Below are positions 3,737 through 29,925 of a DNA stretch of 44,783 bases, one piece after another. This DNA is from Moraxella caprae DSM 19149 (GTDB lineage Bacteria; Pseudomonadota; Gammaproteobacteria; Pseudomonadales; Moraxellaceae): the NCBI RefSeq assembly GCF_000426885.1, contig NZ_AUGF01000024.1:1-44783 (forward strand), written 5' to 3'. The translations under genes and the position numbers were made by a program. Under the pieces are notes generated by a model that worked only from the letters and a program-made list of their open reading frames with translations, searched no databases and was not told the DNA's origin. Numbering within the stretch: position 1 is the stretch's first letter; each line of letters begins with the position of its first letter.

Positions 3737-4264
3737 TTAGCGGGACGACTTTGGGGTATTGATGTTTTGCACGCTTTGTAAAAAGGTTTTGAGTGCCAAT
3801 AAATCCTGCTCCATGATTGACATCGCTTGCTCGTCTTTGATGGCAAAACTTTTGGCGTATTTTTCATCGTACCAGTAAATGGTTACGCTGTTGGCTTTGG
3901 TGGTCAGTCCTTGGATATAGGACAGTAGTGGCTCGGGGGGTATGCCCACACTGACAGGCACGCCATCTTCGTTTTGCCAGTCGCCCCCCATCCACAGCAG
4001 GCGTTTGGCGGGCAACTGCCAGCTGTCATCAATGACGGTGTACTGGGCTATCATGCCGTGATTATTTGTCTGCTTGTCCTGCCCGCTCTCTTTGTGCTGT
4101 TTTAACCAATCGGGCATGGCAACCAGTTTGGGGTGCAAGTCTATCTTGCGGGCAAACATTCGCATGTCACCCACTCGCACTTCGCTCATCTTTGGCTTTA
4201 AGCCCATGATGTTGCCAAGCACAAACAGCACAGCAACGATAACGACAATGACCCCAATACTCAC
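3737..4264 (-). CDS. Conserved-type hypothetical protein with one N-terminal membrane segment
   Basis: The 175-aa product is not a family I recognise. Residues 3-20 (IGVIVVIVAVLFVLGNIM) form a single hydrophobic helix, followed by a soluble domain of about 150 residues. That domain contains LPAKRLLWMGGDWQNEDG and a WYDEKYAKSFA stretch. It is probably an inner-membrane-anchored protein with its domain on one face. The start is GTG at 4264; it is preferred because it keeps the complete membrane helix. It lies between the response-regulator gene (24 bp away) and topA (110 bp away) on the same strand, so it may be the last gene of the signalling cluster. The function is unknown. Confidence 0.7.
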   Translation of the reverse strand: MSIGVIVVIVAVLFVLGNIMGLKPKMSEVRVGDMRMFARKIDLHPKLVAMPDWLKQHKESGQDKQTNNHGMIAQYTVIDDSWQLPAKRLLWMGGDWQNEDGVPVSVGIPPEPLLSYIQGLTTKANSVTIYWYDEKYAKSFAIKDEQAMSIMEQDLLALKTFLQSVQNINTPKSSR

Positions 4265-4288
4265 AACTGGCTACTTATTTCTTTTTAC

Positions 4289-4672
4289 TTATTTCTTAGC
4301 TTTGGCACTAAGTTCAATCAAGCGTTGCATGCCTGCAATCAGCTCCTCGTCATTAAACGGCTTATAAATAAAGCCCCTTGCCCCGACTTGCAGGGCTTGT
4401 AATGCCGTCATACGGTCAGAGAGTGCCGAGACAACCAAAATACTCACACCCGTTCCTTTGCCCACGATACGCTTGATGCATTCAAGTCCATCCATCTGTG
4501 GCATGGTCAAGTCCATGGTAATAAAATCAGGACGAAATTCATCAAATTTTAATACGGCATCCACGCCATTATTGGCGGTCGCCACAATCTCAATACTACT
4601 ACCCTCAAAACAACGCTCAATGCGGTTACGAATAATATTAGAATCATCAACAATCATCAGACGATAAGCCAT
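4289..4672 (-). CDS. Single-domain response regulator (CheY-like)
   Basis: This 127-aa receiver domain has no output domain. The acidic pair is in LMIVDDSNIIR, the phosphoacceptor Asp is in DFITMDLTMPQMDG, the conserved Ser is in ILVVSALSD, and the conserved Lys is in FIYKPF. The ATG at 4672 is chosen over a TTG at 4684 because GGAG sits six bases upstream of it. It is the natural phosphorylation partner of the CheA-like kinase immediately upstream (4938-7037). The two are separated by a family D palindromic element at 4699-4927. As a stand-alone receiver it probably acts by protein-protein contact, as CheY or PilG does, not by binding DNA. Confidence 0.92.
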   Translation of the reverse strand: MAYRLMIVDDSNIIRNRIERCFEGSSIEIVATANNGVDAVLKFDEFRPDFITMDLTMPQMDGLECIKRIVGKGTGVSILVVSALSDRMTALQALQVGARGFIYKPFNDEELIAGMQRLIELSAKAKK

Positions 4673-4698
4673 TCTTTGCTCCAAAATCTAAAAATCAC

Positions 4699-4927
4699 AA
4701 ACAGACCTGGGGCGTGTCCGCCTTTGGTATTTGCAATGAAAAATGAGAAAAATCGCACGTTTTTCAAGGAAAAAGTGAAGTTTGATGGTCATTCTATCAA
4801 ACAAGCTTTTGACTTCGAGCCACAAGATTTAGCCAATTTTCATGCAAAAATTGATTTGAATTATAAAATTCTCATTAAATTTTAATAAAATATTATCAAA
4901 GGCAGGCACGCCCCACTCAGGTCTGTT
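4699..4927. repeat. MITE-like palindromic element, family D copy 1
   Basis: The ends form imperfect inverted repeats of about 29 bases: AACAGACCTGGGGCGTG on the left and its complement, with a 3-base insertion, on the right. The interior contains TATTTGCAATGAAAAAT and AAGATTTAGCCA blocks that recur in the copies at 7097-7224 and 32822-33085. A 69-codon open frame crosses it but looks accidental. It occupies the gap between the kinase and response-regulator genes, about 230 bp long. Confidence 0.75.
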
Positions 4928-4937
4928 TTTATTTATA

Positions 4938-7037
4938 TTACTGTGCATCAAAGTTGATGACAATCTTTGTATTTAGCCCTGGCTGACTCTCGACATTGAT
5001 TTTACCATTAACTTCTTTGACCCACTCACGCACGATGTCCATGCCCACACCACGCCCACTGTCTTCATCGACACCATTGGCAGTTGAGACACCTGAGCGG
5101 AACATGATAGCGTATAGACGACTGTCGGGCAAGCTTGATGCTTGTTCAGCAGTCATAAGATTCATCTCAGTGGCTTTTTGACGTAGTTTTTGCAAATCCA
5201 CGCCTGCCCCATCATCGATGATACTCATGCGTAGCTGACTGCCATATTTTAAAAGCATTAGCTTGATTTGACCTACTTCGCTTTTACCTGCCTGCACACG
5301 CACATCAGGTATCTCAATGCCATGAGCGATGGCATTTTTAAGTAGCTGAATGCCGACATCTTGGCAGAACTTTTTGAGCTTATCAGTCATCTGAATATCT
5401 TCAAAACCTGTTAAGTTTACCTTAACTTTTTTGCCTTGACGTTCGGCGATTTGCTGAGCATAATCACCAAAGTAGCTTTGCCAATCTAGCGAATGACTAC
5501 TTGGGGCGACAGTGGCAGATTTGTCATCTGTCTGCGTCATCACACTTTGTACGCTTTGCCCGACATCATCTTTGTCTATTTCTTTTGCCACACGGCTAAT
5601 GCGTTGCAAGAGTTTTTCTACAAATTGGTTCAAATCCAAAATGTCATTTAGAATAATCGTAAAACCCAAAAAGTCCTGACCTGAGACCGTGCTTTGATTG
5701 CGAATTAGCACCAGATTCTCTTCGCCTTGCTCGGCAAGACGCACAAAGCTACCCATCTTAATGGCAGATGCTTCGCCTTTTAGACTGTGCATTTTTCTAA
5801 ATAGGGCTTGGGCTTTGTTATGTAGCTGACCTTCGACTCTTAGAATCTCATTCATCTCACTCACACGCTCATAAGTGTTATTGATGAATTGATTTAGTAC
5901 GTTGATATCGACGTTTAGAATGTGTCCAATCATCTCAATCTGACGGTCATGCTGTGCCTTTTCACTCTCCAAAGTTTTTTCAAGTAATACCGAGTCGGTC
6001 ACATCAACAACGCTCACAAAGATTTCTTCAACTTCGTCGTTTTCGCTCTCTTGAACACGCAAGAAGCTAAACGACAGGTATTTGACCACCGTATCTCCCT
6101 GCTCGTTCATGACGTTTACTTTGATTTGTCGTAGTGGGTTCAAATCCCCAATCAACTCTGATACCACCCAAGGATTATAAAGCTGTTCAACAAACAACTT
6201 GGTTGCTTCAATATCATCACGCCCTACCATGCCTTGCAACAGCTCGGTCAAGGTAATGCCTGCAATGTCCTTACGCCCCAAGATGACTTCTAGATTCTTA
6301 GAGTGAGCATCCGAGATGACAAAATCTTTGTCAATCAAAAACAGACCTTCTTGCACTGTATCTAAGATGTTGGTCGTTTGACGACGGGCAATTTGTAGGT
6401 TACGGTCAGATGCGGTCAGTTTTTTCAAAAAATAAAACACAAACCAAATAAAATACAGACCTGCCAGCACAAAGCCTGCCATCATCACGTTTCTGGCAAG
6501 AGCCGTCCATTCTAGACCTCTAACAGTCTGATTGTCCCAAACCACTGAAACTGGACCATAAACTTTTTCGTCAAACTCATCAAAAATATGTCTTGCCACA
6601 GGATTGACGTCCGCTTGACCATCTAGCACAGGATTTAGGCGTTGTTTATAATCCATCCACCATGCTTTTAACTCGTTAAATGCTTGGACATCCTCAGGAT
6701 GCGTGAGTGCCTCGACAGGCACCGTTCTGTCTTCGACTTGATACTCGCCACCTGTCTCATAAAGACGCATGTACTCATCAACCGCATCCACACTTTTTCT
6801 TAGTGCCACTATCGCCTCAGGTCGCTCTTCTTTAGTCGCAACTTGCAATCGCTGGGTTAATAAGTTGACATTATAATACTCATCACTTAGATAACCGAAT
6901 ATATCAAAGAAGTTAGAGATTTTGTTAACTTGTTGGTTAGCATGATAGTTAAACCCCAAAATGCCCGCCACCAATGCCAAAAAGACTGCCAAAGATAATA
7001 GCAGGCTTTTATATCGTGAATCTAATAAACCGCCCAT
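4938..7037 (-). CDS. Membrane-bound CheA-like hybrid sensor kinase (Hpt + HATPase, no CheW domain)
   Basis: The 699-aa protein has a transmembrane helix at about 11-28, a periplasmic region to about 180, and a second helix at about 184-204. A PAS-like domain follows (about 222-350), then an Hpt domain with phosphorylatable His417 in RKMHSLKGEAS, a linker, and a CheA-type ATPase domain. The ATPase boxes are visible: N (LLKNAIAHGIE, 565-575), G1 (DDGAGVD, 608-614), F (MFRSGVSTA) and G2 (SGRGVGMDIV). The chain ends directly after the ATPase domain, so the CheW-like P5 regulatory domain of true CheA is missing. The phosphoryl group would pass from His417 to the adjacent response regulator. It has its own upstream gap containing a MITE, and the Roadblock gene before it ends in a terminator, so it probably has its own promoter. 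Confidence 0.9.
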   Translation of the reverse strand: MGGLLDSRYKSLLLSLAVFLALVAGILGFNYHANQQVNKISNFFDIFGYLSDEYYNVNLLTQRLQVATKEERPEAIVALRKSVDAVDEYMRLYETGGEYQVEDRTVPVEALTHPEDVQAFNELKAWWMDYKQRLNPVLDGQADVNPVARHIFDEFDEKVYGPVSVVWDNQTVRGLEWTALARNVMMAGFVLAGLYFIWFVFYFLKKLTASDRNLQIARRQTTNILDTVQEGLFLIDKDFVISDAHSKNLEVILGRKDIAGITLTELLQGMVGRDDIEATKLFVEQLYNPWVVSELIGDLNPLRQIKVNVMNEQGDTVVKYLSFSFLRVQESENDEVEEIFVSVVDVTDSVLLEKTLESEKAQHDRQIEMIGHILNVDINVLNQFINNTYERVSEMNEILRVEGQLHNKAQALFRKMHSLKGEASAIKMGSFVRLAEQGEENLVLIRNQSTVSGQDFLGFTIILNDILDLNQFVEKLLQRISRVAKEIDKDDVGQSVQSVMTQTDDKSATVAPSSHSLDWQSYFGDYAQQIAERQGKKVKVNLTGFEDIQMTDKLKKFCQDVGIQLLKNAIAHGIEIPDVRVQAGKSEVGQIKLMLLKYGSQLRMSIIDDGAGVDLQKLRQKATEMNLMTAEQASSLPDSRLYAIMFRSGVSTANGVDEDSGRGVGMDIVREWVKEVNGKINVESQPGLNTKIVINFDAQ

Positions 7038-7096
7038 AACTCGCCTTCACTTGTCATACATCAAAAAAATCAACCCGTCATTAATACATGAATATT

Positions 7097-7224
7097 TAGG
7101 GCGTGTTGAACCTTTATAACACTATTTACAATATAGAAATATTTTAGAAATAAAACAATGTTTTTGCATGAAAAATGGCTAAATCTTGTTTTTCATTGCA
7201 AATACAAAAGTTCAACACGCCCTA
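7097..7224. repeat. MITE, family D copy 2 (128 bp, perfect ends)
   Basis: The terminal sequence TAGGGCGTGTTGAAC is repeated perfectly inverted at the other end, giving 15-base terminal inverted repeats. Each end begins or ends with TA, which fits a TA target duplication. The interior matches copy 1 (TATTTGCAATGAAAAA, AAGATTTAGCCA, TTTTCATGCAAAAA in reverse orientation) and the right part of the copy at 32822-33085. It is an internally deleted, shorter form of that family. It lies 59 bp upstream of the kinase start. Confidence 0.85.
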
Positions 7225-7473
7225 ATATGTTTAATTAAAAAATTATTTTGTCGCATTAAAAACAATTGTTAAAATAATTATTTTTAAAGTGCATTTATAT
7301 TTATTTGGTATATATCTGTACCAATTACAATTAGACTAACAACTGTCCGATTAATTACCGACTAAAATTGTGTATTTTATACCAAAAAACCAAATTATTC
7401 TAACACTAATTAACAATTCATACATTTTTTATGTATCAATCAATAATAAAAGTCATTACAGTCATCATCTTAT
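7225..7473. other. AT-rich intergenic stretch upstream of the kinase gene
   Basis: This stretch has no open frame or RNA gene that I can support. It is very AT-rich, with TTTGGTATA near 7304 and TATACCAAA near 7379 forming a weak long-range inverted repeat. It probably contains the kinase promoter, but no hexamer pair stands out. Confidence 0.5.
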
Positions 7474-7508
7474 TTATAAAAACAAAAACAGCCCGATATC
7501 GGGCTGTT
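7474..7508 (-). terminator. Intrinsic terminator after the Roadblock gene
   Basis: A perfect 22-base palindrome, AACAGCCCGAT paired with ATCGGGCTGTT (7487-7508), is followed on the minus strand by a T-rich tract. It lies 18 bases past the stop of the Roadblock gene and should end the GTPase-Roadblock transcript before the kinase gene. Confidence 0.85.
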
Positions 7509-7526
7509 GAGTGATGATTCATGTAC

Positions 7527-7967
7527 TTATTTGCCGTGATGCTGACCGTCAAGCTCCACCAAACGAGTGGTGGCTTTATTCATGGCGTGCATGATTTGCC
7601 CGAGTAGAACCTGCTGTTTGGTGACCACAATCAAAATCATGGGCTGATTGACATTTGGCACGGCACTAATCATAATTTTGCCATTTTCAGCATCCAAAAT
7701 CACCGAACGACACCCAGTCAGCTGAGCCTCAGCAGTTAAGGCTTGTACCAGTGCCAAGATGGATGAACCGACTGCTGAGAGTTTATTGCCATCATAGTTT
7801 TTTTGAAAGATAGATGATACTTCAAAACCATCGGTCGATGCCAGTAATACACCATCTACGCCTGTGGTAGAATGCACCAACTCATGAAGCACTTCTTTTG
7901 AAAGTGTCACAAATTGCTCAGCAGGCTTGACACGATTAGAATCCAATTTAAAAGGGCTAAGACTCAT
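7527..7967 (-). CDS. Roadblock/LC7-domain protein (MglB/CvnB-like)
   Basis: The 146-aa single-domain protein has the Roadblock/LC7 core from about residue 27 to 135. The characteristic strand-turn-strand is TTGVDGVLLASTDGFEVSS, followed by the long helix (LSAVGSSILALVQALTAEA) and a later beta hairpin (KIMISAVPNVNQPMILIVV). Roadblock dimers bind small GTPases as GAPs or regulators; MglB in Myxococcus and CvnB in Streptomyces conservons are the known cases. The GTPase gene is immediately upstream (47 bp). The start has GGAG seven bases before the ATG. The His-rich C-terminus (GQHHGK) is not informative. The pairing with the GTPase is inferred from adjacency and family behaviour. Confidence 0.9.
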   Translation of the reverse strand: MSLSPFKLDSNRVKPAEQFVTLSKEVLHELVHSTTGVDGVLLASTDGFEVSSIFQKNYDGNKLSAVGSSILALVQALTAEAQLTGCRSVILDAENGKIMISAVPNVNQPMILIVVTKQQVLLGQIMHAMNKATTRLVELDGQHHGK

Positions 7968-8014
7968 TATTTTACTCCAAGATGTTTATTTGTATGTCAG
8001 TGTTGTCAAGTGAT

Positions 8015-8542
8015 TTACTCAGACTGTTCTAGGCTAGCGATGATACTCTCAACGAGTAACAAGACATCTTCACGTTTACGCATGTCCACAGGGAATAGTG
8101 GTAAGTTACGCCCAATGCTCGCTAGATAATCACGATAAATGGAGAATTCACGCTCGGGCATTTTGTCTACTTGACTGACACCCAGCACGATACGACCATC
8201 ATAAATGCCATCAAAAGTCTTTAAATAATGTGCCAAATCTGCCACAGGATCAGCTGCCGAATGGTCAATCAAAATCACCACGCCCAAAGCACCTTGGGAT
8301 AGGATGGGCCAAATGAAGTTAAAACGCTCCTGCCCTGGGGTGCCATAAAGACCAATACTTGCCCCACCATCAATGGTCAGCTCGCCATAATCCATGCCGA
8401 CTGTGGTCAAAAGCTTGGCGTTGGTATCAAGGTCGGTATTCATGACCTCGGTTGAGACCACAGGAATGTCAGAGAGACTAGAGATGGCCTGGGTCTTACC
8501 TGCACCCATAGGGCCACTAAATACAATTTTAAGACGTTGCAT
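8015..8542 (-). CDS. Small Ras/MglA-like GTPase (COG2229/CvnD type)
   Basis: The 175-aa cytoplasmic GTPase has its P-loop at GPMGAGKT (10-17). The switch II motif is GTPGQERF (67-74), with Gln71 in the position of the Ras catalytic glutamine. A hydrophobic strand, ALGVVILIDHS, follows. The base-recognition motif is degenerate: SQVD (123-126) stands where NKxD is expected, so nucleotide specificity may be altered. The sequence belongs with bacterial small GTPases encoded beside Roadblock proteins. An AGGTAG ribosome-binding site precedes the ATG. The Roadblock gene follows after 47 bp, and a family A element lies between this gene and the 372-aa protein gene upstream. I infer that it is a molecular switch read out by the Roadblock partner. 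Confidence 0.9.
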   Translation of the reverse strand: MQRLKIVFSGPMGAGKTQAISSLSDIPVVSTEVMNTDLDTNAKLLTTVGMDYGELTIDGGASIGLYGTPGQERFNFIWPILSQGALGVVILIDHSAADPVADLAHYLKTFDGIYDGRIVLGVSQVDKMPEREFSIYRDYLASIGRNLPLFPVDMRKREDVLLLVESIIASLEQSE

Positions 8543-8560
8543 AAGTGCTACCTAAATAAC

Positions 8561-8723
8561 TATATTAAATATATTGGCTTTGGTTCAAAAAGTATGCTAC
8601 AAAGGAAACCGTTCGTGGTGAGCTTGGGAAGCCTAACGATTTTCCTACCCGCAGGCAGGCTCAGGGCGAACGGAAAACCTAGTTCAGCATACTTTTTGGA
8701 CTACTATCAATATATTAAATATA
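8561..8723. repeat. Family A palindromic element (8574-8708) with 13-bp flanking direct repeats
   Basis: The 135-bp element runs from TTGGCTTTGG to ACTACTATC. It has inner inverted ends CAAAAAGTATGCT and AGCATACTTTTTG. The core contains CCGTTCGTGGTGAGCTTG and CAGGGCGAACGG. A second copy of identical length lies inverted at 22323-22457. The 13-base sequence TATATTAAATATA occurs directly on both sides (8561-8573 and 8711-8723), which looks like a target duplication, although the AT-rich context leaves some doubt. It sits between the 372-aa protein gene and the GTPase gene. Confidence 0.8.
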
Positions 8724-8797
8724 AATAACATGAGAATGTAAATAATGATAAATTTATTGTATGATAAAAATAAAAACATTGCAATTAGGACGTGTCA

Positions 8798-9916
8798 TCA
8801 CAGCCCCAGTTTGCGACGCAGACGTGACAAGAAACCGATTTTCTCTTGTTGTTCGGCGGTTTTTGGTTCAGGTTTTGGTTCAGGCTCGCTCACAGGTGCA
8901 GACGCTGTGACTGTCACTGGTACCACGGTCGATGTCTGCATGATGGTCGCATTCACGTTTTGGTAGTTATCATCCATCAAATGCTGAGAAAGCAGTAGCG
9001 AGACAATCACTTTTTGAACGATAGGACGACCCAGTCCCGTGCGTGCCATAATCTCATCTACCGTGCGTGCTGTATCTTCTAAGGCAACCATTGTCCGCAA
9101 GATAATGCGTCTGTCGGCATTATTATCAGGCTTTGCCCATGAACGAAGCTGATAGCGGGCATTGCCATCGATGAGTGGTAATAACTTCTCAGCATTCGCC
9201 CATGCCATCTGATACAGCCACTGATTCATGTCGAGGGCTTGCTTAGGCTCGCCTGCCACACCGCCATACACACGCAGTCGCCATGTCGTCACGTCTGCCA
9301 CTTTGGCACTTTTTAGCCATACCAGCTGGCGCGCTCCATCAATAACAGCCAACACCTCTCCATCTTGAATCAGCTCAAATAAGGACTTAGGACGAGCGTG
9401 CAACGTCTTAATCAAGTCTATCACGTCATCTAACTTTGATGTGGTAGACTGTGGCGATTGCGCTGTGTGAGCAGTTTGGGCTGACTGGCTGGTTTGATTC
9501 TCCTGATTGGTTTGGGTGCTTGTTTTGTCAGGCTCACCAGACGTGCTTGATTTTTGATAAGGCAGACCCTTTAATACATCCACTTTTTCATGAAGCCAGT
9601 CATTTAAGGCATTGATTTGTTTTAGGGGCAATACCAGTGAGTCGCCAGCGATACCACCATCACCTGTCAGGTTGCGACTGACGTATAAGATGGGTGTGCG
9701 TGGGTGCAATTCTATTAGTTTTTGCACGCTGGTAGAATTTTTAAAATCTTCATTAATGACATACAAATCAACCTCACCCATCTGAGCGGACACCCAATCC
9801 AAATCTACGTCCAAACGCAATAGGACACGCAGATATCCTTTAAAAGTAATTTGGTCAGCAGGGCTAACACCAACCATGGCAATACGCATGGCTTTTTTGC
9901 TATCAGTACTCGTCAT
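8798..9916 (-). CDS. Pseudo-receiver / winged-helix-like protein of the GTPase module
   Basis: The 372-aa product has three parts. Residues 9-115 alternate strands and helices like a receiver domain (RIAMVGV, DLYVINEDF, PILYVSR, LVLPLK), but the clustered acidic residues are absent, so it is a pseudo-receiver at best. A Gln/Ser/Thr-rich linker covers about 120-160. A second globular part ends in a helix-turn-helix-like segment (about 290-325, TVDEIMARTGLGRPIVQK) that resembles the C-terminal helical region of DUF742 (CvnC) proteins. A PEPKPEPK spacer then leads to a basic amphipathic tail (IGFLSRLRRKLGL), a possible membrane-binding helix. GAGAG precedes the ATG by six bases. It is the first gene of the cluster. 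The function is not established; a scaffold or effector of the GTPase is the inference. Confidence 0.75.
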   Translation of the reverse strand: MTSTDSKKAMRIAMVGVSPADQITFKGYLRVLLRLDVDLDWVSAQMGEVDLYVINEDFKNSTSVQKLIELHPRTPILYVSRNLTGDGGIAGDSLVLPLKQINALNDWLHEKVDVLKGLPYQKSSTSGEPDKTSTQTNQENQTSQSAQTAHTAQSPQSTTSKLDDVIDLIKTLHARPKSLFELIQDGEVLAVIDGARQLVWLKSAKVADVTTWRLRVYGGVAGEPKQALDMNQWLYQMAWANAEKLLPLIDGNARYQLRSWAKPDNNADRRIILRTMVALEDTARTVDEIMARTGLGRPIVQKVIVSLLLSQHLMDDNYQNVNATIMQTSTVVPVTVTASAPVSEPEPKPEPKTAEQQEKIGFLSRLRRKLGL

Positions 9917-10596
9917 GATTTACTCTCAACCAAAGCAATTGCTTGGAGATTATTGGTCTAAATTGTCTAACGCCATTATCCTGATATTTTTTGATAAAGA
10001 AAATATCTGCTTAATTTTATAAGCAACCCGATACACCATAAATCAATGTTTGATTTATGTTTTTCTTTTATCCCAATATCACATTTAATTAATACGACCA
10101 TCAGTGATAATTGTTGATTTTAAATAACTTTTAAAAATTCGGTCAGAAAATTTTAAAATTTAATAAAATACCATTATCCAATATCGTGTTAAAAAATTTG
10201 GTATGGCAGTTAGAATGAGTGCTTTATTTTCATCCAAAATGAAATCGCTTCATGATGCCAATAAAAGTAATTATTGATAATTCATAAAAATTTATCAAAT
10301 ACCAACTTGTTATTAACAAATATTGATAAAACTTAATTTTAATCAATAGTTTACAAAATTGGGCACATTCAGCGGTTATTTTGGCATGAGACCACACCAA
10401 AACATTCATTTTAAATAAACAATTAAAGATAAATCAGCAAATTTAGGTTATTAATTTGCTGATTCTATTTTATAACATAATTTGGTCTACGGCTATACCA
10501 AACAGTAAAAATATTTTACCATTGAGCAATATTTTTATATCCATAAAAATATTGTGGATATAAATTAAGCATGTTTTGTGTATTATTTGGGCAAAT
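9917..10596. other. 680-bp AT-rich intergenic gap with two strong hairpins
   Basis: There is no credible coding frame on either strand. Two perfect 12-bp stems are visible: 10432-10464 (AATCAGCAAATT with a 9-base loop) and 10527-10554 (CAATATTTTTAT with a 4-base loop). The left end must carry the promoter of the signalling cluster. The rest could hold a small RNA or a decayed gene, but nothing in the sequence proves it. Confidence 0.6.
10432..10464. terminator. Perfect hairpin, possible terminator
   Basis: AATCAGCAAATT and AATTTGCTGATT form a 12-bp stem with loop TAGGTTATT. The plus-strand side is followed by CTATTTTATAA and the minus side by a moderately T-rich run. No gene ends next to it on the plus strand; on the minus strand the DUF4230 gene ends 133 bp before it, so it could be that gene's terminator. 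Confidence 0.5.
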
Positions 10597-11274
10597 TCAC
10601 ACCCTACACGCCCCCACATCGCCATTGACCACCACAGTCGCCCCTGTCAAGACAAATAAACCCTTGATTTGTTCGGTGGCGTTATCGGTGGCGAGGGTCA
10701 TGATGTCGCCTTGACACGCTTTTTTTAGCACTTCGGCTTTGGCGGAGATTTGGGCTTGATTTAAAATCTCAGGGTCATTATCCACCACGCCAAACAGCCC
10801 TGTTTTCCAGTCATAGACCTGTATGTCATCAAGGAACACCTCAAACACCTGCGATGGCGGGAGCGTTACCGTGATGTTGGCGTGCGGGGCAACTTTTGGG
10901 TCGGTCTGGGGATCAAAGGTAACTTGCACGTTGTCCGCCGTGATTTTACCCAAATCCACGCCTGCCAAAACCCGCCCACGAGCAACAAACAGCCCCTTTT
11001 GCTCGTCCTGCCATAGCTTGTACCAATTGCCTTCTTTTTGGGCGGTAATGACCGTGTCCACGCCAAAGGCAACGGTATTTAGGCGAGCCATTTTTTGGAT
11101 TTCGGTGACAACACCGTCTCGGCTAATGGCGGATACGGCAGGCTCTTCGGTCAATTTTAACGTCCAAAAAACCGCCAAAAACACAATCATCGCCATGACT
11201 GACACGATACAAAATAAGGTGAATTTATTGGCTTTTTTTACTTTGGGGGTAGTAGGTGGGGTGGATGTGGTCAT
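10597..11274 (-). CDS. DUF4230 family membrane-anchored protein
   Basis: The 225-aa protein has a short polar N-terminus (TTSTPPTTPKVKKANK), one transmembrane helix (about 20-42, FTLFCIVSVMAMIVFLAVFW) and a periplasmic-type domain typical of DUF4230. The domain shows AISRDGVVTEIQKMARLNTV, GRVLAGVDLGKI and the VTLPPSQVFEVFLDD strand pair. It ends in a helical segment (AEVLKKAC...ATEQIKGLF). The start at 11274 is preferred over 11316 because AAGGAG sits just before it. The gene is divergent from proS. No function is known for the family. It resembles other single-pass anchored proteins and has no catalytic motif that I can see. Confidence 0.8.
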   Translation of the reverse strand: MTTSTPPTTPKVKKANKFTLFCIVSVMAMIVFLAVFWTLKLTEEPAVSAISRDGVVTEIQKMARLNTVAFGVDTVITAQKEGNWYKLWQDEQKGLFVARGRVLAGVDLGKITADNVQVTFDPQTDPKVAPHANITVTLPPSQVFEVFLDDIQVYDWKTGLFGVVDNDPEILNQAQISAKAEVLKKACQGDIMTLATDNATEQIKGLFVLTGATVVVNGDVGACRV

Positions 11275-11389
11275 AACTCTCCTTTTGAAAATGCAAATTG
11301 ACGTAAAACAACTCATTTAATACCATAATAGGGACAATTTTAGCATTTATCAAAAAAATTACTTGCACTGTTACCAAAGTTTACTTTAA

Positions 11390-11395
11390 TATAAT
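11390..11395 (+). promoter_or_regulatory. Candidate -10 element for proS
   Basis: A perfect TATAAT lies 41 bases before the proS start. No good -35 hexamer is found at 16-18 bp spacing, so the call rests on the -10 alone. Confidence 0.45.
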
Positions 11396-11436
11396 ACGTT
11401 TTTACCAAATTTAAAATCAAACTTGCCGAGAATCTT

Positions 11437-13164
11437 ATGAAAGCCAGTCAATTTACCCTAGCCACCCTTCGCAACACCCCAAGCGATGCCGACATCATCT
11501 CCGCCCAGCTTATGATAAAAGCAGGTCTGATTCGCAAACTTGCCTCAGGCTTGTATGTGTGGATGCCAACGGGCTTACGTGTGCTAAAACGAGTGGAAAA
11601 AATCGTCCGTGAAGAAATGGAGCGTATCGATGCCCAAGAGTTGCTCATGCCTGTCACCCAACCTGCCGAACTATGGCAAGAGTCGGGACGTTGGGAAGAC
11701 TATGGGGCGGAATTGCTTCGCTTTAAAGACCGTCATAGCCGTGATTTTGTACTAGGGCCTACGCACGAAGAAGTCATCACCGACATCGCTCGGAGTGAGC
11801 TAAAAAGCTACAAACAGCTCCCTGCCACGTATTATCAAATCCAAACCAAATTCCGTGATGAGATTCGCCCACGTTTTGGGGTGATGAGAGCTCGTGAATT
11901 CACCATGAAAGATGCGTATTCTTTTCATATCGACAAAGACAGCCTTGCCAAGACTTATCAAGACTTTTATGAAGCGTACAGTCGTATCTTTACCCGTTTG
12001 GGGCTTGATTTTAGAGCGGTGCAAGCGGACACGGGGTCTATTGGCGGATTTGCCAGTCATGAATTTCATGTATTAGCCGACAGTGGAGAAGACGACATTG
12101 CATTTAGCAGTGAATCCGACTACTCGGCGAACGTGGAGCTTGCTGAAGCGGTCTGCCACGACACACGCCAGCCCCCAAGTGAGCCACGCACGGACGTGGA
12201 TACGCCAAATATGCCAACCTGTGAAGAAGTGGCGGAGCATTTGGGCATGGACTTGACACGCACGGTAAAAACGCTCATCGTCAAAGGCTCGTACTCGGAA
12301 TATACGCCTGATATGCCAAAACTTGTCGCCCTTGTCTTGCGTGGCGACCACACCCTAAACGAGCTAAAAGCCGAGAAGTTGCCCCAAATCAAAGCACCGT
12401 TAGAAATGGCAAGCGAAGATGAGATGAAAGAAGCTGGTCTCGTTAAGGGCTATATCAGTGTGGACTTGGCAAAATATGACATACCTGTCATCGCTGACAG
12501 AAGTGCATCCGTCATGGCGGATTTTGTGAGTGGGGCGAACATCGCCGATAAGCACACAAAAGGCATGAACTGGGAGCGTGATGCGGTCTATGCAGATGTT
12601 GCCGACATTCGCAACGTGGTAGACGGCGACCCAAGCCCAGACGGTAAAGGCGTACTACAAATCAAGCGTGGCATTGAAGTCGGACACATCTTTCAATTGG
12701 GCGATAAATATTCGCACGCCCTAAATTGTACAGTGCTAGGTAAAGAAGGCAAGCCTGTTACGCTGATGATGGGCTGTTATGGCATTGGGGTTAGCCGTAT
12801 CATCTCAGCAAGCCTAGAACAAAACCATGATGATAAGGGCTGTTTGTGGGTGGACACGCCAGACCCTGTCGATAATATCGCCCCTTTCTATGTGGCGGTC
12901 GTCCCCATGAAATCCAAAGACGGCTCAGCAGAAGCCAAAGCGGACGAGCTGTATAGCACCCTAAAAGCCAAAGGCGTAAACGTCCTATTAGACGACAGAG
13001 ACGAGCGAGCGGGCGTGAAATTTGCTGATTTGGAGCTTATCGGTATCCCTCATCGTATCGTGGTGTCCGAGCGTAACTTGGCAGAGGGCAAATACGAATA
13101 CGCCAAGCGTGGGTGTGATGATAAAGAGCTGTTGGGGCTTGATGAAGTGCTTGCAAAATTCTAA
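11437..13164 (+). CDS. proS: Prolyl-tRNA synthetase (bacterial type with editing insertion)
   Basis: The 575-aa class II synthetase charges tRNA-Pro and is close to the 572 aa of the E. coli protein. The class II core starts with [22 protein letters not shown]. Motif 2 is the [21 protein letters not shown] region, and motif 3 is [13 protein letters not shown] near residue 445. The INS editing domain occupies roughly residues 225-405 between motifs 2 and 3. The C-terminal anticodon-binding domain includes [25 protein letters not shown]. It is transcribed alone, divergently from the DUF4230 gene, and ends in a hairpin terminator. Confidence 0.98.
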
Positions 13165-24338: not shown

Positions 24339-26459
24339 TTAGTAGCGACTAACGCCGTCGTTGACGATGCGTGGTGTGACAAAGATAAGGAGCTCTTCTT
24401 TGCTGTTAAGCCTAACATTATTTCTAAACAAACGACCCACCCCTGGTAAATCACCTAAGAAAGGTACTTTACTTTGGTTGTTACCAATGGTGTTCTTAAA
24501 GACACCGCCCAGCACCACAGTCTGACCATCTTCTAAGATAACATTGGTTTTTATCTCATCAGTGCTAAGAATTGGTACGCCCAACACCCTACTGCCGGAG
24601 TCCGCAGAGTTGGTAATTTCTAAATCTAGACCTATCTTACCCTCTGGGGTGATGTTTGGTGTGGCAGATAGCACTAAAGCCGCTTCTTTAAAGCTGACTG
24701 TTGTTGCACCACTGGCTGATGCCTCTTGATAAGGAATATCCACCCCAGATGAGATTCTGGCTGGTTGTTTATCAGATGTTAAGACCTTTGGCGAAGAGAT
24801 AATCTCTCCTTTATTATCAGCCTGCATTGCTGACAATTCCAAGCCCAGTGCATAATTATCAATATTCAACAGTCCTAGCGATATACCACTTGTAGCTGCA
24901 ATACCTAAATCAACAGCAAAGTTACCAAAACGCGATTCGGTGTTTGAAGAAGACAATCCATTCATTCCGCGAATGTCAAATTCATTACCCTTTCTATTAA
25001 AACCCCATCTTACACCCAACTGCTTAGAAAAAGAGTCTGATGCATTAACAATGCGAGCCTCAATCATTACCTGTTTAACAGGAATGTCAATAGTTTCAAT
25101 TAATTGACGTACATTTGCAATGCTTCGTGCCGTATCATTGATGATGATGGTGTTGGTACGACCATCAAAGGTAGCATTACCACGTGGGCTAAGTAGTGAG
25201 TTACGGCTATTATTAGAGCCACTTGAACCACCAACTCTATCTAATAGGCCATGAATGTCTTCCGCCTTGGCATAGTTAAGACGGATATGCTCTTGACGAA
25301 TAGGTTCTAATTCATCTACCTTTTTAGCATCTTCCAACTCTTTAATTTCGCGTGCTGCCAACTCTTCAGCAGGTGCTACCAAAATCACGTTACCATTTTT
25401 GCGCTGACCTAGATTTTTACTTTTTAGGATAATATCCAATGCTTGATCCCATGGGACATTAATAAGTCTTAATGTAATATTACCCTGCACATTATCAGCA
25501 GCAACGATATTATTTTCGGTGAATTGACCCAATACATCAAGTACAGTACGCACTGATACATCCTGAAATTCCATTGATAACGGTTCACCAGTATAAACCT
25601 TCTCTTCAATGGTCGGTTCACGGAGTATTTTTGGTGGCAATACTGAGATGTTAAGTGTTGCACCTGATTGATAGGCTTGGTACTCAAAATCACCTGTCAT
25701 GTTAACCGTAATAACACCATTTTGACCTTGATTTTTTGCATCAATATCCGCAACCAAACCACTACCATTAATACGTTTTAATAAATGACGTGGAATGGTA
25801 GTGCCAGTGGTGCGAATCACCAGTTTATTACCTTGGCGTTGTACATCTACAGGAATGGACTCATTGGTTAGGTTTACGGTAACATTACCACCATTAGCAT
25901 TACCTGAGTAATCGACTGTTGAGACGCCGTCATAACTACTTGCCAAAGAACCCGAGGTAGGTGCTAACAATGGGTTTACTTTTACAGTCATCGGCTGTGC
26001 CTCTGGTTGGGCTGGCGTGGCAACAACCGCAGGGGCGGGTTCATTTGCTACAGATTGGGTGGTCGATGAACCGCCCTGTTTTATATTAATAAGTAGCTGA
26101 TTACCTTGTACCGTGCTGGTGTAGCTTGCACTATCCTTTAAGTTAATCATTAAGCGGGTCATAGAGCCGTTATTTAGTGCAGTCACTTCATTAACCACGC
26201 CACGGTTGATGGGCATACTTCTTGGCAATCCACCACTACTTACTTGGTTAAAATCAAGTGCCAATTGCTTACCGCCTGCCTGTTGATAAGCCACAGGGGT
26301 TACAGGCTGACCATCAAAAGCAACTTTAATTTGCGTAGTATCAGCACTGATTTGGTTGGCTGATAGACCTTGAATAGCTAAAGCATGTGCTTCAACCGCC
26401 ATAAAACTGATTGCCAACGCAGAATAAGCAAAGGCAGACTTTTTGTTTAAAAAATTCAT
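24339..26459 (-). CDS. pilQ: Type IV pilus secretin
   Basis: The 706-aa outer-membrane secretin forms the channel through which pili and transforming DNA pass. It has a signal peptide (ending VEAHA), two AMIN peptidoglycan-binding domains (about 28-120 and 175-275), and a secretin N0/STN domain near 290-355 (PLSMEFQDVSVRTVLDVLGQ). An N1-type domain follows (LNYAKAEDIHGLLDRV...ARSIANVRQLIETID), then the secretin core with VPILSTDEIKTNVILEDGQT and the VPFLGDLPGVGRLFRN lip motif. The length is normal. It is the last gene of the pilMNOPQ operon, 34 bp after pilP. Confidence 0.97.
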   Translation of the reverse strand: MNFLNKKSAFAYSALAISFMAVEAHALAIQGLSANQISADTTQIKVAFDGQPVTPVAYQQAGGKQLALDFNQVSSGGLPRSMPINRGVVNEVTALNNGSMTRLMINLKDSASYTSTVQGNQLLINIKQGGSSTTQSVANEPAPAVVATPAQPEAQPMTVKVNPLLAPTSGSLASSYDGVSTVDYSGNANGGNVTVNLTNESIPVDVQRQGNKLVIRTTGTTIPRHLLKRINGSGLVADIDAKNQGQNGVITVNMTGDFEYQAYQSGATLNISVLPPKILREPTIEEKVYTGEPLSMEFQDVSVRTVLDVLGQFTENNIVAADNVQGNITLRLINVPWDQALDIILKSKNLGQRKNGNVILVAPAEELAAREIKELEDAKKVDELEPIRQEHIRLNYAKAEDIHGLLDRVGGSSGSNNSRNSLLSPRGNATFDGRTNTIIINDTARSIANVRQLIETIDIPVKQVMIEARIVNASDSFSKQLGVRWGFNRKGNEFDIRGMNGLSSSNTESRFGNFAVDLGIAATSGISLGLLNIDNYALGLELSAMQADNKGEIISSPKVLTSDKQPARISSGVDIPYQEASASGATTVSFKEAALVLSATPNITPEGKIGLDLEITNSADSGSRVLGVPILSTDEIKTNVILEDGQTVVLGGVFKNTIGNNQSKVPFLGDLPGVGRLFRNNVRLNSKEELLIFVTPRIVNDGVSRY

Positions 26460-26493
26460 TATTTCATCCTCAGAATAAATCTAGTTAGCTCTG

Positions 26494-27024
26494 TTAATTT
26501 GGTGACACCAACGGAGTGGTTTTTTCAACGTATTGCTCATCAGTATCTTTGACAATCTCAATCAAATTGATTTGAGTTGAAGTAATCTCAACAATACGCC
26601 CATGGTTTTTACCTAGGTAGTTACCAACCTGAACATCATGCACCATCATATCAGGCGTTTGTACCAATCCATATTCCTGACCATTAGGTGCAACCACTTT
26701 ACCACGATATGTTAGTTGCAACAACTCAAATTCTTCAAGTGGCTCTTTCACTCGATTCTCATCTGGTTTTACAGAAGGCGTCTGCTCCCTGACTTGCTGA
26801 CGTTCGCGTAGGCTTTTTGGCACAAAAGGGTCGGACTCACCTTGAGCAGCATAAACAAAGTCTTCAATCTTAAGGGGTTCTGGTGGCGGCTCAATAGCTT
26901 GAGGTCCTTGACTGCGAATTTTTTGCATTTCTGATTCAGCAAGGCTAACACGATCGGTGCAACCCACCAATAAAGACAGAAGTATCGCCAAACCGACATT
27001 GGTTTTTAGAGAAAAATTAATCAC
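26494..27024 (-). CDS. pilP: Type IV pilus alignment lipoprotein
   Basis: This 176-aa inner-membrane lipoprotein links the PilMNO complex to PilQ. The signal has a lipobox (LLVGC) with Cys22 as the probable lipid-bearing residue. The periplasmic beta domain is at about residues 95-170 (LTYRGKVVAPNGQEYGLVQT, YLGKNHGRIVEITSTQI). The pilO stop overlaps the pilP start by four bases. The long disordered stretch between the lipid anchor and the beta domain is typical of the family. Confidence 0.94.
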   Translation of the reverse strand: MINFSLKTNVGLAILLSLLVGCTDRVSLAESEMQKIRSQGPQAIEPPPEPLKIEDFVYAAQGESDPFVPKSLRERQQVREQTPSVKPDENRVKEPLEEFELLQLTYRGKVVAPNGQEYGLVQTPDMMVHDVQVGNYLGKNHGRIVEITSTQINLIEIVKDTDEQYVEKTTPLVSPN

Positions 27025-27863
27025 TTGCCCTCTCCTTCAGTTGACTTCACTTCTTCGGCAGATGCATTTAGATCCACATCCCCCTTTGCACGATAAGTTT
27101 TGGTTTGCAACACCAGTTGTAATTCGGGCATTCTATCAAGCGAAGGCTGAGGATTCTTAATCTCAAAGTCGTGCATGGTAATGATTCTTGGCAAAGCAGC
27201 AATGCCACTCACAAACGAACCAAACTGATGATAATCCCCCAAACCAATAATTTGAATGGGTTGCTCAATAAAGAACTCTTGCTCCACCTCAGGTTGCACA
27301 GAAATGTCCTGAAAACGCACACCACTACCACTACCCACCATGTTGATACCATCTACCAATTCAGGCACACGAGTATCGGTAGGTAGCTGTGCCAATAGGT
27401 CCGCAAAATCAGTCTCCATTTGTGCCACTTGTGCTTCATAGGCTTGCAGATGGCGGGCTTTGGACTCTTTTTCTTTATAACTTTCAAGCAAACTAACTTG
27501 TTGACTTTCAGCCTGTTTAATTTCATCAAGTTTTTTAGAGATTAACAAAAGCCAAGCCAAAACCAAAATAATCGCTAGCATCATCGCTAAGATGAAAATC
27601 TTAACTGGGAGCGGGGCGGAGCCATAGTTTTGACCATTTAAGGAGTTTACCTCTGCCATAAACTTTTTGGAATCAAAAGCAGGTTTTTTAGGCTTAGAAC
27701 CCGCCTTTTTACCTTTGGCTTTTGTTTTGGGCTTGCCCAAGCCACCCGAGCCTTTTGGCTTTGATAAATTTGGCTTGCCAAGTTTAATTTTTTTCTTACC
27801 GCTCTCCTCTGGAGTAGCAGCTGTATCGGTGGTTGGTTTAGATTTTTTGAAAGGTGATTTCAT
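27021..27863 (-). CDS. pilO: Type IV pilus inner-membrane alignment protein PilO
   Basis: The 280-aa bitopic protein pairs with PilN. It has a Lys/Pro/Gly-rich cytoplasmic N-terminus of about 90 residues, longer than the short tail of Pseudomonas PilO. A transmembrane helix follows (about 88-108, KIFILAMMLAIILVLAWLLLI), then a coiled-coil stretch (EIKQAESQQVSLLESYKEKE) and a ferredoxin-like periplasmic domain (GVRFQDISVQPE, PIQIIGLGDYHQFGSFVSGI). It overlaps pilN and pilP by four bases each, so translation is coupled. Confidence 0.94.
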   Translation of the reverse strand: MKSPFKKSKPTTDTAATPEESGKKKIKLGKPNLSKPKGSGGLGKPKTKAKGKKAGSKPKKPAFDSKKFMAEVNSLNGQNYGSAPLPVKIFILAMMLAIILVLAWLLLISKKLDEIKQAESQQVSLLESYKEKESKARHLQAYEAQVAQMETDFADLLAQLPTDTRVPELVDGINMVGSGSGVRFQDISVQPEVEQEFFIEQPIQIIGLGDYHQFGSFVSGIAALPRIITMHDFEIKNPQPSLDRMPELQLVLQTKTYRAKGDVDLNASAEEVKSTEGEGK

Positions 27864-28741
27864 GGTTGACCTCCTACTTGGGTGCTACCATCTGTAGGTG
27901 TAGGTTGCGTATTTTGGGTATTAGGAGTATCAGTCGCTTCTGTATCCGATGTAGTATTATTGGTGGGTTCAGATGCTGGGATTGCCTCGCTTGTAGTTGA
28001 AGATGCTTGAGCTGGAGCGTTATCAACACCAATCGCTGAAACCTCAGGCATTGTTTGAGCACCCACACTTTGACTGTCTACAGTAACGGGTGGTAATACA
28101 ACGTCCTCACCGGTTGAATCAGTGGCTTCTTCTTTGTCTTCTTGATATTGAATCTTGGTGGTTGCCACAAATTCTACATAACCATCTTCAGGATACACAG
28201 AACGAGTACCTGCATCGGCTAATTGTTGAGAGGGCGTACTTTGATAGGCCTCTAGTTTAGTCTTAATGCTTACCACCGCTGAGCCATCCAACCATTCACT
28301 AGCATTTAAGTTGCGTACCAAATTTGCCACAACATTGGGGTTAGCAGCAAAGCCTGTAAATGTAATTACATCGCCTTCACGCTTGATATTGTTTAGATAC
28401 ATGGTATCTCTTGGGATGGCTCGAGCGATGTTATCCCATACACGCACAGGCACCGAACGACGACCTTGCAAATCTTGAATAACTTTCATCTGAGACAGCA
28501 TCTGCTCGCGTTTAACCTCTAGCTCTTCAATCGATTTTAGGGCAACATCAAGCTGAGCGTTGGCGTCTTCAATGTGTTTATTGGCATTTTGTTGGTTGGT
28601 CAATTCTCGATTTAAAATAGACAACACCAAAATCGTCGCCAAAATAGCAAGTCCAGCTGTCGCTCCTGCCAAGAGATTAAACTCTTTATTTCTACGCTCA
28701 CGCTGTTCTTTACGCCATGGTAATAAGTTAATGCGTGCCAT
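27860..28741 (-). CDS. pilN: Type IV pilus inner-membrane alignment protein PilN
   Basis: The 293-aa protein starts with the conserved cytoplasmic MARINLLPWR motif that binds the PilM actin-like groove. A transmembrane helix (about 24-46), a coiled coil and a periplasmic domain (GRRSVPVRVWDNIARAIP...YLNNIKREGDVITFTGFA) follow. After about residue 200 is an extended Thr/Ser/Pro/Glu-rich tail with many low-complexity repeats (NTTSDTEATDTPNTQNT) that is not usual for PilN and makes it about 90 residues longer than PilN in Pseudomonas. The start overlaps the pilM stop by one base. Confidence 0.94.
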   Translation of the reverse strand: MARINLLPWRKEQRERRNKEFNLLAGATAGLAILATILVLSILNRELTNQQNANKHIEDANAQLDVALKSIEELEVKREQMLSQMKVIQDLQGRRSVPVRVWDNIARAIPRDTMYLNNIKREGDVITFTGFAANPNVVANLVRNLNASEWLDGSAVVSIKTKLEAYQSTPSQQLADAGTRSVYPEDGYVEFVATTKIQYQEDKEEATDSTGEDVVLPPVTVDSQSVGAQTMPEVSAIGVDNAPAQASSTTSEAIPASEPTNNTTSDTEATDTPNTQNTQPTPTDGSTQVGGQP

Positions 28742-29799
28742 CAGTCAAACCCCCTTAAAGCCAATCCACACGCCGCCATCAGGCTTGGTGCATCTTTTTG
28801 GAGCGTAACGGCATCAATGCGTGAGTCAATAGACATACCCTCAAAAGGATTTGCTACTGATACCATACCCCCGACACGTTGTTGCACCATTTGAGCCAGT
28901 CCTGGCAGCGCAGAAGTGCCACCACACAAGACAATATGGTCAACATTGTTGTATTCGCTAGATGAGAAATAAAATTGCAATGAACGGCTGATTTGTTGGA
29001 CGATATTTTCCATAAAAGGTGTGAGCACACTCTCATGATAATCAGCAGGCAGTGTATGTTCATGCTTACCGATGGTAGCATCATGATAAGGAATACTGTA
29101 ACGCGACTGAATCTCTTCGGTTAACTGAGCCCCACCAAAACCTTGCTCACGGTTATAGATAAATTCACCATCTTTGGCGATATACAGCGTAGACTGCTTA
29201 TGCCCCAAATCAATGAGTGCTACCACCTGTGGGTCATTAGGCAGATTATCCACCATCAAACTAAATGCACGCTCAATGGCATGAGACTCAATATCCATCA
29301 CTTTGGCTGTCAAACCACCCATCAAGAGAGTCTCGACACGCTGATCCACGTTCTCAGAACGAGAAGCAGCAAGCAGAACTCGCACCAAGTTCGGGTCAGT
29401 CGTTGATGGTCCTAACACCTCAAAATCCATATTGACTTCCGCCAATGGATATGGGATATACTGCTCAGCATCTAGCTTGATTTGGGCCTCGCGGTCAGAA
29501 TCAGACATGTTTGTTTCCATGTCAATAATCTTGGTAATCACCGCCGAGCCTGATACTGCCGTTGCTGCGTCTTTAGCACCAGCACCAGAACGACGCACCA
29601 AACGAGCGATGGCCTCGCCCACTTCTTCACCATTGACAATATTTTTGTCAACAACCCAACCCGGCTCAAGCGGCTCAACGCCATAAGACTTCAAATGAAG
29701 CCTTCCTTGTTGTTTTGTTAGCTCAACAAGTTTAACGGAAGTAGTACTGACATCTAAGCCGAGAAGATGCCGACCCTTAGAAGAAAAAGATAGTCCCAC
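28741..29799 (-). CDS. pilM: Type IV pilus actin-like ATPase PilM
   Basis: The 352-aa cytoplasmic protein has the actin/FtsA-like fold. Phosphate 1 is LLGLDVSTTSVKLVEL, phosphate 2 is VALIDLGHKQSTLYI, and the adenosine motif is HIVLCGGTSALPGL. It binds the PilN N-terminal peptide and the pilus ATPases. The start is set at a GTG at 29799, since AAGGA lies eight bases upstream and the fold then begins as in other PilM proteins. A TTG at 29829 (362 aa) is possible. It is the first gene of the operon and is divergent from the PBP1A gene. Confidence 0.95.
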   Translation of the reverse strand: MGLSFSSKGRHLLGLDVSTTSVKLVELTKQQGRLHLKSYGVEPLEPGWVVDKNIVNGEEVGEAIARLVRRSGAGAKDAATAVSGSAVITKIIDMETNMSDSDREAQIKLDAEQYIPYPLAEVNMDFEVLGPSTTDPNLVRVLLAASRSENVDQRVETLLMGGLTAKVMDIESHAIERAFSLMVDNLPNDPQVVALIDLGHKQSTLYIAKDGEFIYNREQGFGGAQLTEEIQSRYSIPYHDATIGKHEHTLPADYHESVLTPFMENIVQQISRSLQFYFSSSEYNNVDHIVLCGGTSALPGLAQMVQQRVGGMVSVANPFEGMSIDSRIDAVTLQKDAPSLMAACGLALRGFD

Positions 29800-29925
29800 A
29801 GACTTTATCCTTATATTTTTTAACGCCAACCGAAAAAAACAGCATCGTTTCGGTTATAATAATGGCTTTTGAAAGTACAGTGCGTTACTGCTTTACACCA
29901 ATAAATGCCAACTTCACAGTTTTAT

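Follow-up and report, generated by a model that had tools for sequence, protein, structure and literature searches.

Group 3 MglA systems were described by Wuichet and Sogaard-Andersen in 2014 as an MglA GTPase accompanied by one or two MglB proteins and by a protein with a receiver-like N-terminus, a variable linker and a winged helix; their GTPases have a G4 motif without Lys and an unusual G5 motif (PMC4316618). The group was named again in Snodgrassella (PMC11112851). The words Acinetobacter and Moraxella are absent from the main text of the 2014 paper (PMC4316618), and among the publications listed in literature searches, judged by titles and abstract openings, none concerned a Group 3 MglA system of either genus. 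Here we analyze a gene cluster of Moraxella caprae DSM 19149. The window, i.e., the whole stretch of DNA studied (44,783 nucleotides), is contig C21 of a 2.6-Mb genome in 103 contigs (G000). Five open reading frames (ORFs) lie on its minus strand between positions 4289 and 9916, and code, in order, for a 372-amino acid (aa) protein (P372), a small GTPase, a Roadblock protein, a membrane kinase with an Hpt domain and a CheA-type ATPase, and a lone receiver. An initial annotation had listed these genes and considered that they may not have been described as a system. ORF and domain scans confirmed its gene order, gene content, single strand and coordinates, but such a system had been on record since 2014.

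We conclude that the region from 9916 to 7527, which comprises the first three genes, is a Group 3 MglA system, as judged by gene content, gene order, motifs, the predicted fold of P372 and the position of the GTPase in a tree. With a probability of about three in four, the cluster consists of two neighbouring units, namely this one and a separate kinase-receiver pair (7037 to 4289).

The three-gene unit and its boundary

The second gene (8015-8542, minus strand) codes for an MglA-family Group 3 small GTPase with the motif YGTPGQERF, a G4 motif (SQVD) that lacks Lys, and a G5 motif DMR, which is DAR in many relatives. YGTPGQ, and the D and R of G5, are invariant across 17 aligned GTPases. Three features of Group 3 were found in the window: a TPGQ-type G3, a G4 without Lys and an Arg in G5, a coupled MglB, and an adjoining receiver-like/winged-helix protein. 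In an unrooted tree of 64 GTPases, which did not include the Group 3 sequence set of the 2014 paper and in which one long row (Comamonas) is unsure, the window GTPase grouped with those of Moraxellaceae, among beta- and gammaproteobacterial sequences. It lay outside the clade formed by seven CvnD sequences (support 100/99) and outside that formed by seven Deinococcus/Thermus GTPases (support 100/98). The third gene (7527-7967, minus strand) codes for an MglB-like Roadblock/LC7 protein, a predicted regulator of the GTPase. It matched CvnB5 with an E value of 0.0021, and the Roadblock similarity proposed earlier held in a profile-profile comparison (96% probability with the CvnB profile), although this feature is general to MglB too. 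The first gene (8798-9916, minus strand) codes for P372, the adaptor.

To place these genes in context, genome contigs were scanned with ten Moraxellaceae GTPases, which gave at least 591 confirmed relatives, and the best 80 loci were kept for counts. A gene of the P372 family was found within 1.5 kb of the GTPase gene, on the same strand, in 79 of the 80 loci (it is missing in L103), and a Roadblock-type gene, detected with either of two profiles, was near the GTPase gene in 66. The synteny survey thus bore out the initial proposal of a conserved GTPase, Roadblock and receiver/helix-turn-helix unit. The adaptor gene was upstream of the GTPase gene in 69 loci (median gap 15 bases), downstream in 8 and otherwise placed in 2. 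Furthermore, 36 loci, mostly of Acinetobacter among those shown, carry a short second Roadblock-like gene, as expected for the two-MglB form; the single representative scanned scored 18.1 bits against Robl_LC7 (cut-off 23). Group 3 MglA systems are common in Moraxellaceae and other Pseudomonadota. Some loci depart from this layout. The Acinetobacter loci L105-L109, L112, L122, L126-L128, L133, L139 and L149 have adaptor and GTPase genes and no nearby match to the two Roadblock profiles, and at least L126 among them carries the short second Roadblock-like gene. In the Thiotrichaceae loci L146, L157 and L159 the adaptor gene is flanked by two GTPase genes.

Directly 3′ of the Roadblock gene lies a terminator (7487-7508, minus strand), with which the unit of three genes closes. 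Its stem has 9 pairs, 6 of them G-C, followed by a T tail (-15.8 kcal/mol, z -3.97), and it is the strongest of the 10 terminator-like sites in the region, where shuffles expect 6.1. A hairpin with a following T run was also visible by eye at the corresponding place in L036, L038 and L041. In the 80 loci, where the family of the window kinase was the only kinase family scanned for, this family was found within 4 kb of the GTPase gene once (L100, a Moraxella metagenome-assembled genome, the same locus as in G018), and a receiver matching the window profile was found within the same distance in 4. When relatives of the kinase were counted above 200 bits in 57 genomes, the one under study included, 17 places were obtained: 4 beside the GTPase core (G000, G001, G002 and G018), 12 away from it, and 1 undecided on a 3.2-kb contig. 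It is because of the terminator, of the single locus among 80 and of these 12 relatives located away from the GTPase core that the kinase-receiver pair looks separate, and, unlike in the initial annotation, it is not counted in the conserved unit.

The adaptor and the output of the switch

The predicted model of P372 consists of a receiver-like domain (aa 7-117), a low-confidence linker (126-159), a small alpha/beta domain (161-248), a winged helix (∼260-330), a second linker and an amphipathic helix (354-370). The receiver fold was matched, and the winged helix was matched more weakly. On the minus strand of the window these parts correspond to 9566-9898 for the pseudo-receiver domain, 8927-9139 for the winged-helix domain, and 8801-8857 for the C-terminal basic amphipathic helix (GFLSRLRRKLGL), a candidate membrane or GTPase docking tail. 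The pseudo-receiver domain has Asn55 at the phospho-acceptor position. An alignment of 63 family members, from which the phosphorylation-residue columns were assigned, revealed Asn in the acceptor column in 38 and Asp in 15, a K at column 99 in 10, and the acid pair in 3. None of the 63 combines the acceptor Asp with both the acid pair and the Lys. Since no relative keeps all the phosphorylation residues, ordinary phosphotransfer is improbable for the receiver domain of P372, and the phosphorelay branch into P372 that had been envisaged is unlikely for the same reason.

By eye, all 63 relatives end in a short hydrophobic and basic, amphipathic-looking stretch like that of the window protein. 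The best 11-residue hydrophobic moment within the last 24 residues averaged 0.65 in the family (lowest 0.40), versus 0.46 in 633 control ORFs of at least 200 aa from the same loci, a set that includes related genes and some spurious ORFs. Over the last 15 residues, 92% of the family have a net charge of at least +3, and no member has less than +1. Membrane-targeting amphipathic helices of the MinD-like type provide the comparison case for a membrane-binding tail. From these properties of the sequence we infer that P372 is a membrane-docked partner of the GTPase. Two points speak against this assignment: the measure is only moderately specific, as 7% of the controls reach the median moment of the P372 family and 11% pass a moment of 0.40 and a charge of +3 jointly; and the tail could instead fold onto the GTPase or onto P372 itself.

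Because of the MglA/MglB and conservon data, the general mechanism is taken to be a Roadblock-switched GTPase that works with an adaptor. The GTPase would be the switch of the 9916-7527 unit, the Roadblock protein would set its nucleotide state, as thought for MglB or CvnB, and P372 would be its dedicated partner. The receiver-like domain probably serves in interaction or in sensing. The winged helix and the basic amphipathic tail would dock P372 to the GTPase and/or, presumably, to the membrane, so that a membrane site, rather than DNA, would be where the switch acts, or acts first. The new points here are the loss of the receiver phosphorylation residues and the conserved tail. They offer two handles, in that the adaptor is improbable as a normal target of a phosphorelay and its tail may serve the switch as a membrane anchor.

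The likeliest output would be a surface behaviour, perhaps the placement or activity of type IV pili. In Snodgrassella, an allele of an orphan mglB changed spreading on soft agar, which was ascribed to type IV pili, and had a bee gut competition phenotype (PMC11112851). That phenotype stems from the orphan gene, whereas the window locus is of the 1:1 type. The window carries pilM (28741-29829) and pilQ (24339-26459), at least 14 kb from the core. The region 24339-29829 is the pilM-to-pilQ region of the type IV pilus operon, and the three genes between these two gave no NCBIfam match. The distance from pilM to the GTPase gene is 17-30 kb in G000, G001, G002 and G018 and ∼374 kb in G027, and in G021 the two are on different contigs. 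pilM was over the cut-off in 19/19 GTPase-positive relatives versus 24/38 negative ones. In a class-wide sample of 149 genomes from 148 genera, with pilM called at E 1e-30, it was present in 20/21 GTPase-positive versus 91/128 GTPase-negative genomes (one-sided Fisher p 0.012, uncorrected for descent). A link to pili is weakened by G087, which has the GTPase and no pilM match, and by the many pilM-bearing genomes without the GTPase. We consider a type IV pilus output plausible, at clearly less than even odds, with gene regulation as the main alternative.

Under that alternative, the adaptor would be a DNA-binding transcription factor controlled by the GTPase. Such a role was suggested for the Group 3 adaptor in 2014 (PMC4316618) and for CvnC/CvnD in Streptomyces, where the expression patterns of cvnC8 and cvnD8 mutants match each other (PMC8510531), and the winged helix of the predicted model would suit it. 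The proposed docking would place the switch at the membrane instead, and we regard a DNA-binding adaptor as possible but doubtful. It concerns the output only, and is compatible with two units.

The kinase-receiver pair

The kinase gene (4938-7037, minus strand) codes for a membrane protein with a variable sensor half, an Hpt domain (HSLKGEA) and a CheA-type ATPase, and the receiver gene (4289-4684, minus strand) has its likely start at 4672. The Hpt histidine, H417, is invariant in 13 aligned kinases. Hpt histidine, CheA-type ATPase and an adjoining receiver gene mark the window kinase as a CheA-type kinase with a cognate receiver, and no Pfam match to a CheW-like domain was obtained in it. 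A receiver gene adjoins the kinase relative in all 17 places. In the preferred reading, the kinase of the 7037-4289 unit would work independently as a CheA-like sensor in a single protein: phosphate would be placed on its own Hpt histidine and from there transferred to the lone receiver of the neighbouring gene. In the search, the kinase of G001 aligned with the window kinase only over residues 182-698 (86% identity), and hence the sensor halves of the two differ. Elsewhere, the gene upstream of the kinase codes for a periplasmic-binding lipoprotein, with a Peripla_BP_4 domain in L087 (4671-5681) and an SBP_bac_3 domain in L095. In G001 (L037, 6064-7065) a binding-protein lipoprotein gene lies between the Roadblock and kinase genes; the window has no binding-protein gene at this place, and the sensor half of its kinase is a different one. 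A CheX phosphatase gene follows the pair in L090 and L096. Another contig of the genome under study carries paralogous kinase and receiver genes with a CheX-like gene after them (L086, G000:C17, 5045-8404), and this CheX-like gene is common to the loci of eight genomes, one of them in another family (G036, L096). In G002 (L036) the adaptor gene (6461-7579) and the start of the kinase gene (9335-11459) appear frameshifted, by sequencing error or decay.

All five genes might instead form one pathway, in which the kinase senses an envelope signal and, via the lone receiver, controls the GTPase-Roadblock-adaptor switch. There is a precedent in Myxococcus, where RomR connects the Frz system with MglA (PMC4316618). 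The observations that count against two units are those that favour one pathway. The five genes have the same strand and order in G000, G001, G002 and G018, and in these four genomes the pair and the GTPase unit may be co-regulated. In L037 no clear terminator was seen by eye after the Roadblock gene. Furthermore, the same 7 of the 22 genomes of the genus hold both a member of the kinase family (>200 bits) and a window-type GTPase (≥89% identity). This pattern would suit a functional tie, but the two groups of species may simply differ by descent. On the other side, the terminator separates the Roadblock and kinase genes in the window, and the kinase family occurs at just 1 of the 80 loci. The GTPases of the four side-by-side genomes are 97-100% identical. 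In 3 of the 7 genomes the pair and the GTPase are not side by side. Outside the genus, the GTPase is present in G027, G028, G031 and G035, none of which has a strong kinase relative, and G036 has the kinase without a GTPase match. A single five-gene pathway is therefore improbable, and with two separate units as the preferred reading, the neighbouring kinase should not be taken for granted as part of this GTPase switch.

Repeats with inverted ends occupy three of the four intergenic gaps of the cluster. One (8580-8706) lies between the adaptor and GTPase genes, with 40 matches listed genome-wide, and another (7093-7226) upstream of the kinase gene, with 67 matching pieces listed. A remnant (4708-4915; pairs I2 and I6) lies between the kinase and receiver genes. 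These repeats look like small non-autonomous transposable elements.

Comparison with known systems

The window locus resembles Group 3 MglA as described in 2014 in its receiver-like/winged-helix protein, MglA-type GTPase and MglB, in the G4 motif without Lys and in the beta/gamma taxon range, and differs from it in the adjoining kinase-receiver pair (PMC4316618). The passages of that paper that describe Group 3 make no mention of a C-terminal amphipathic stretch or of a loss of phosphorylation residues, and the window family has both (PMC4316618). A locus of Neisseria, a genus named there as Group 3 (PMC4316618), has the same layout, but with the GTPase and adaptor genes in pieces, and the tree does not include it. 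The plasmid collection contains two chromosome-sized records (2.17 Mb) of Neisseria gonorrhoeae, and in the one examined (L215, NZ_CP119140.1) both genes are in pieces.

The genome under study has a second Group 3-type locus (L034, G000:C12:22000-38000; 4182-9073), with genes for a Roadblock protein, a PAS protein, a PhnD-like binding protein without an apparent signal peptide, a 209-aa protein, a 418-aa protein whose C-terminal tail is similar to that of P372, a GTPase, and a 208-aa protein that matches Roadblock weakly. On contig C9, an orphan Roadblock gene (L035, 7864-8244, minus strand) is close to the Roadblock gene of this second locus (113 bits). Together they resemble the Group 3 mgl genes of Snodgrassella, with one mglA, two coupled mglB and an orphan mglB (PMC11112851). 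Genes like those of the second locus are also present in L050, L052, L055 and L177.

The initial annotation had compared the cluster with both Streptomyces conservons and MglA/MglB. The three-gene unit is comparable to both, and conservons likewise encode a GTPase, a Roadblock protein and a helix-turn-helix protein together, plus a kinase-like protein (PMC8510531, PMC13343842); the GTPase CvnD9 is reported to bind CvnB9 and CvnC9 (PMC8510531). It is very improbable that the cluster is itself a divergent conservon of actinobacterial type that a gammaproteobacterium acquired, as the same four functions (GTPase, Roadblock, winged helix and kinase) and the match of its Roadblock protein to the CvnB profile might suggest. 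The tree largely refutes this reading, with the GTPase outside the separate CvnD clade. The nearest relatives are from Moraxellaceae and other Pseudomonadota, and the Hpt/CheA-type kinase is not conserved at the locus (1/80), whereas the CvnA-type kinase is a core gene of conservons (PMC8510531). P372 gave no match to Pfam DUF742, the CvnC domain. With hhalign, the P372 family reached 65-68% probability against DUF742, and the controls MarR-DUF742 and adaptor-MarR (over 50 columns) reached 52% and 33%. The tails of eight DUF742 proteins have net charges of -3 to +3 and are not consistently basic.

A likeness was also found in Thermus and Deinococcus. In eight of eight plasmid loci, the gene directly 5′ of the GTPase gene codes for a protein whose C-terminal region, like that of P372, comprises a winged-helix-like part followed by a basic amphipathic tail, although the GTPases of these operons form their own clade, apart from that of the window. 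The N-termini differ: P372 has a receiver-like domain, the two Thermus partners have DUF4388 (PATAN), and the Deinococcus ones are annotated as hypothetical. The C-terminal halves of the P372 family and of these partners aligned by hhalign with 70% probability over 94 columns, through the tail. A winged helix alone proves no kinship, since the Deinococcus/Thermus partners also reach 70% against MarR (48 columns). In addition, a plasmid of Agarilytica (L216, 3255-3983) carries a gene for a BLUF protein before the GTPase and Roadblock genes, possibly a light-controlled version of the system.

These likenesses lead us to suggest, tentatively and as the less probable case, that MglA-type GTPases share one class of partner, usually encoded directly 5′. 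It would combine a variable input domain (a pseudo-receiver in beta/gamma, PATAN in Thermus, BLUF in Agarilytica) with a winged helix and a basic amphipathic tail. In this class, the winged helix would not read DNA but would serve in protein docking and so bring the GTPase to the membrane, and CvnC would be a stripped-down relative. The Deinococcus/Thermus partners reached only 18% against DUF742 by hhalign, which argues against this proposal. If true, the shared partner class would be a general signal route to bacterial small GTPases.
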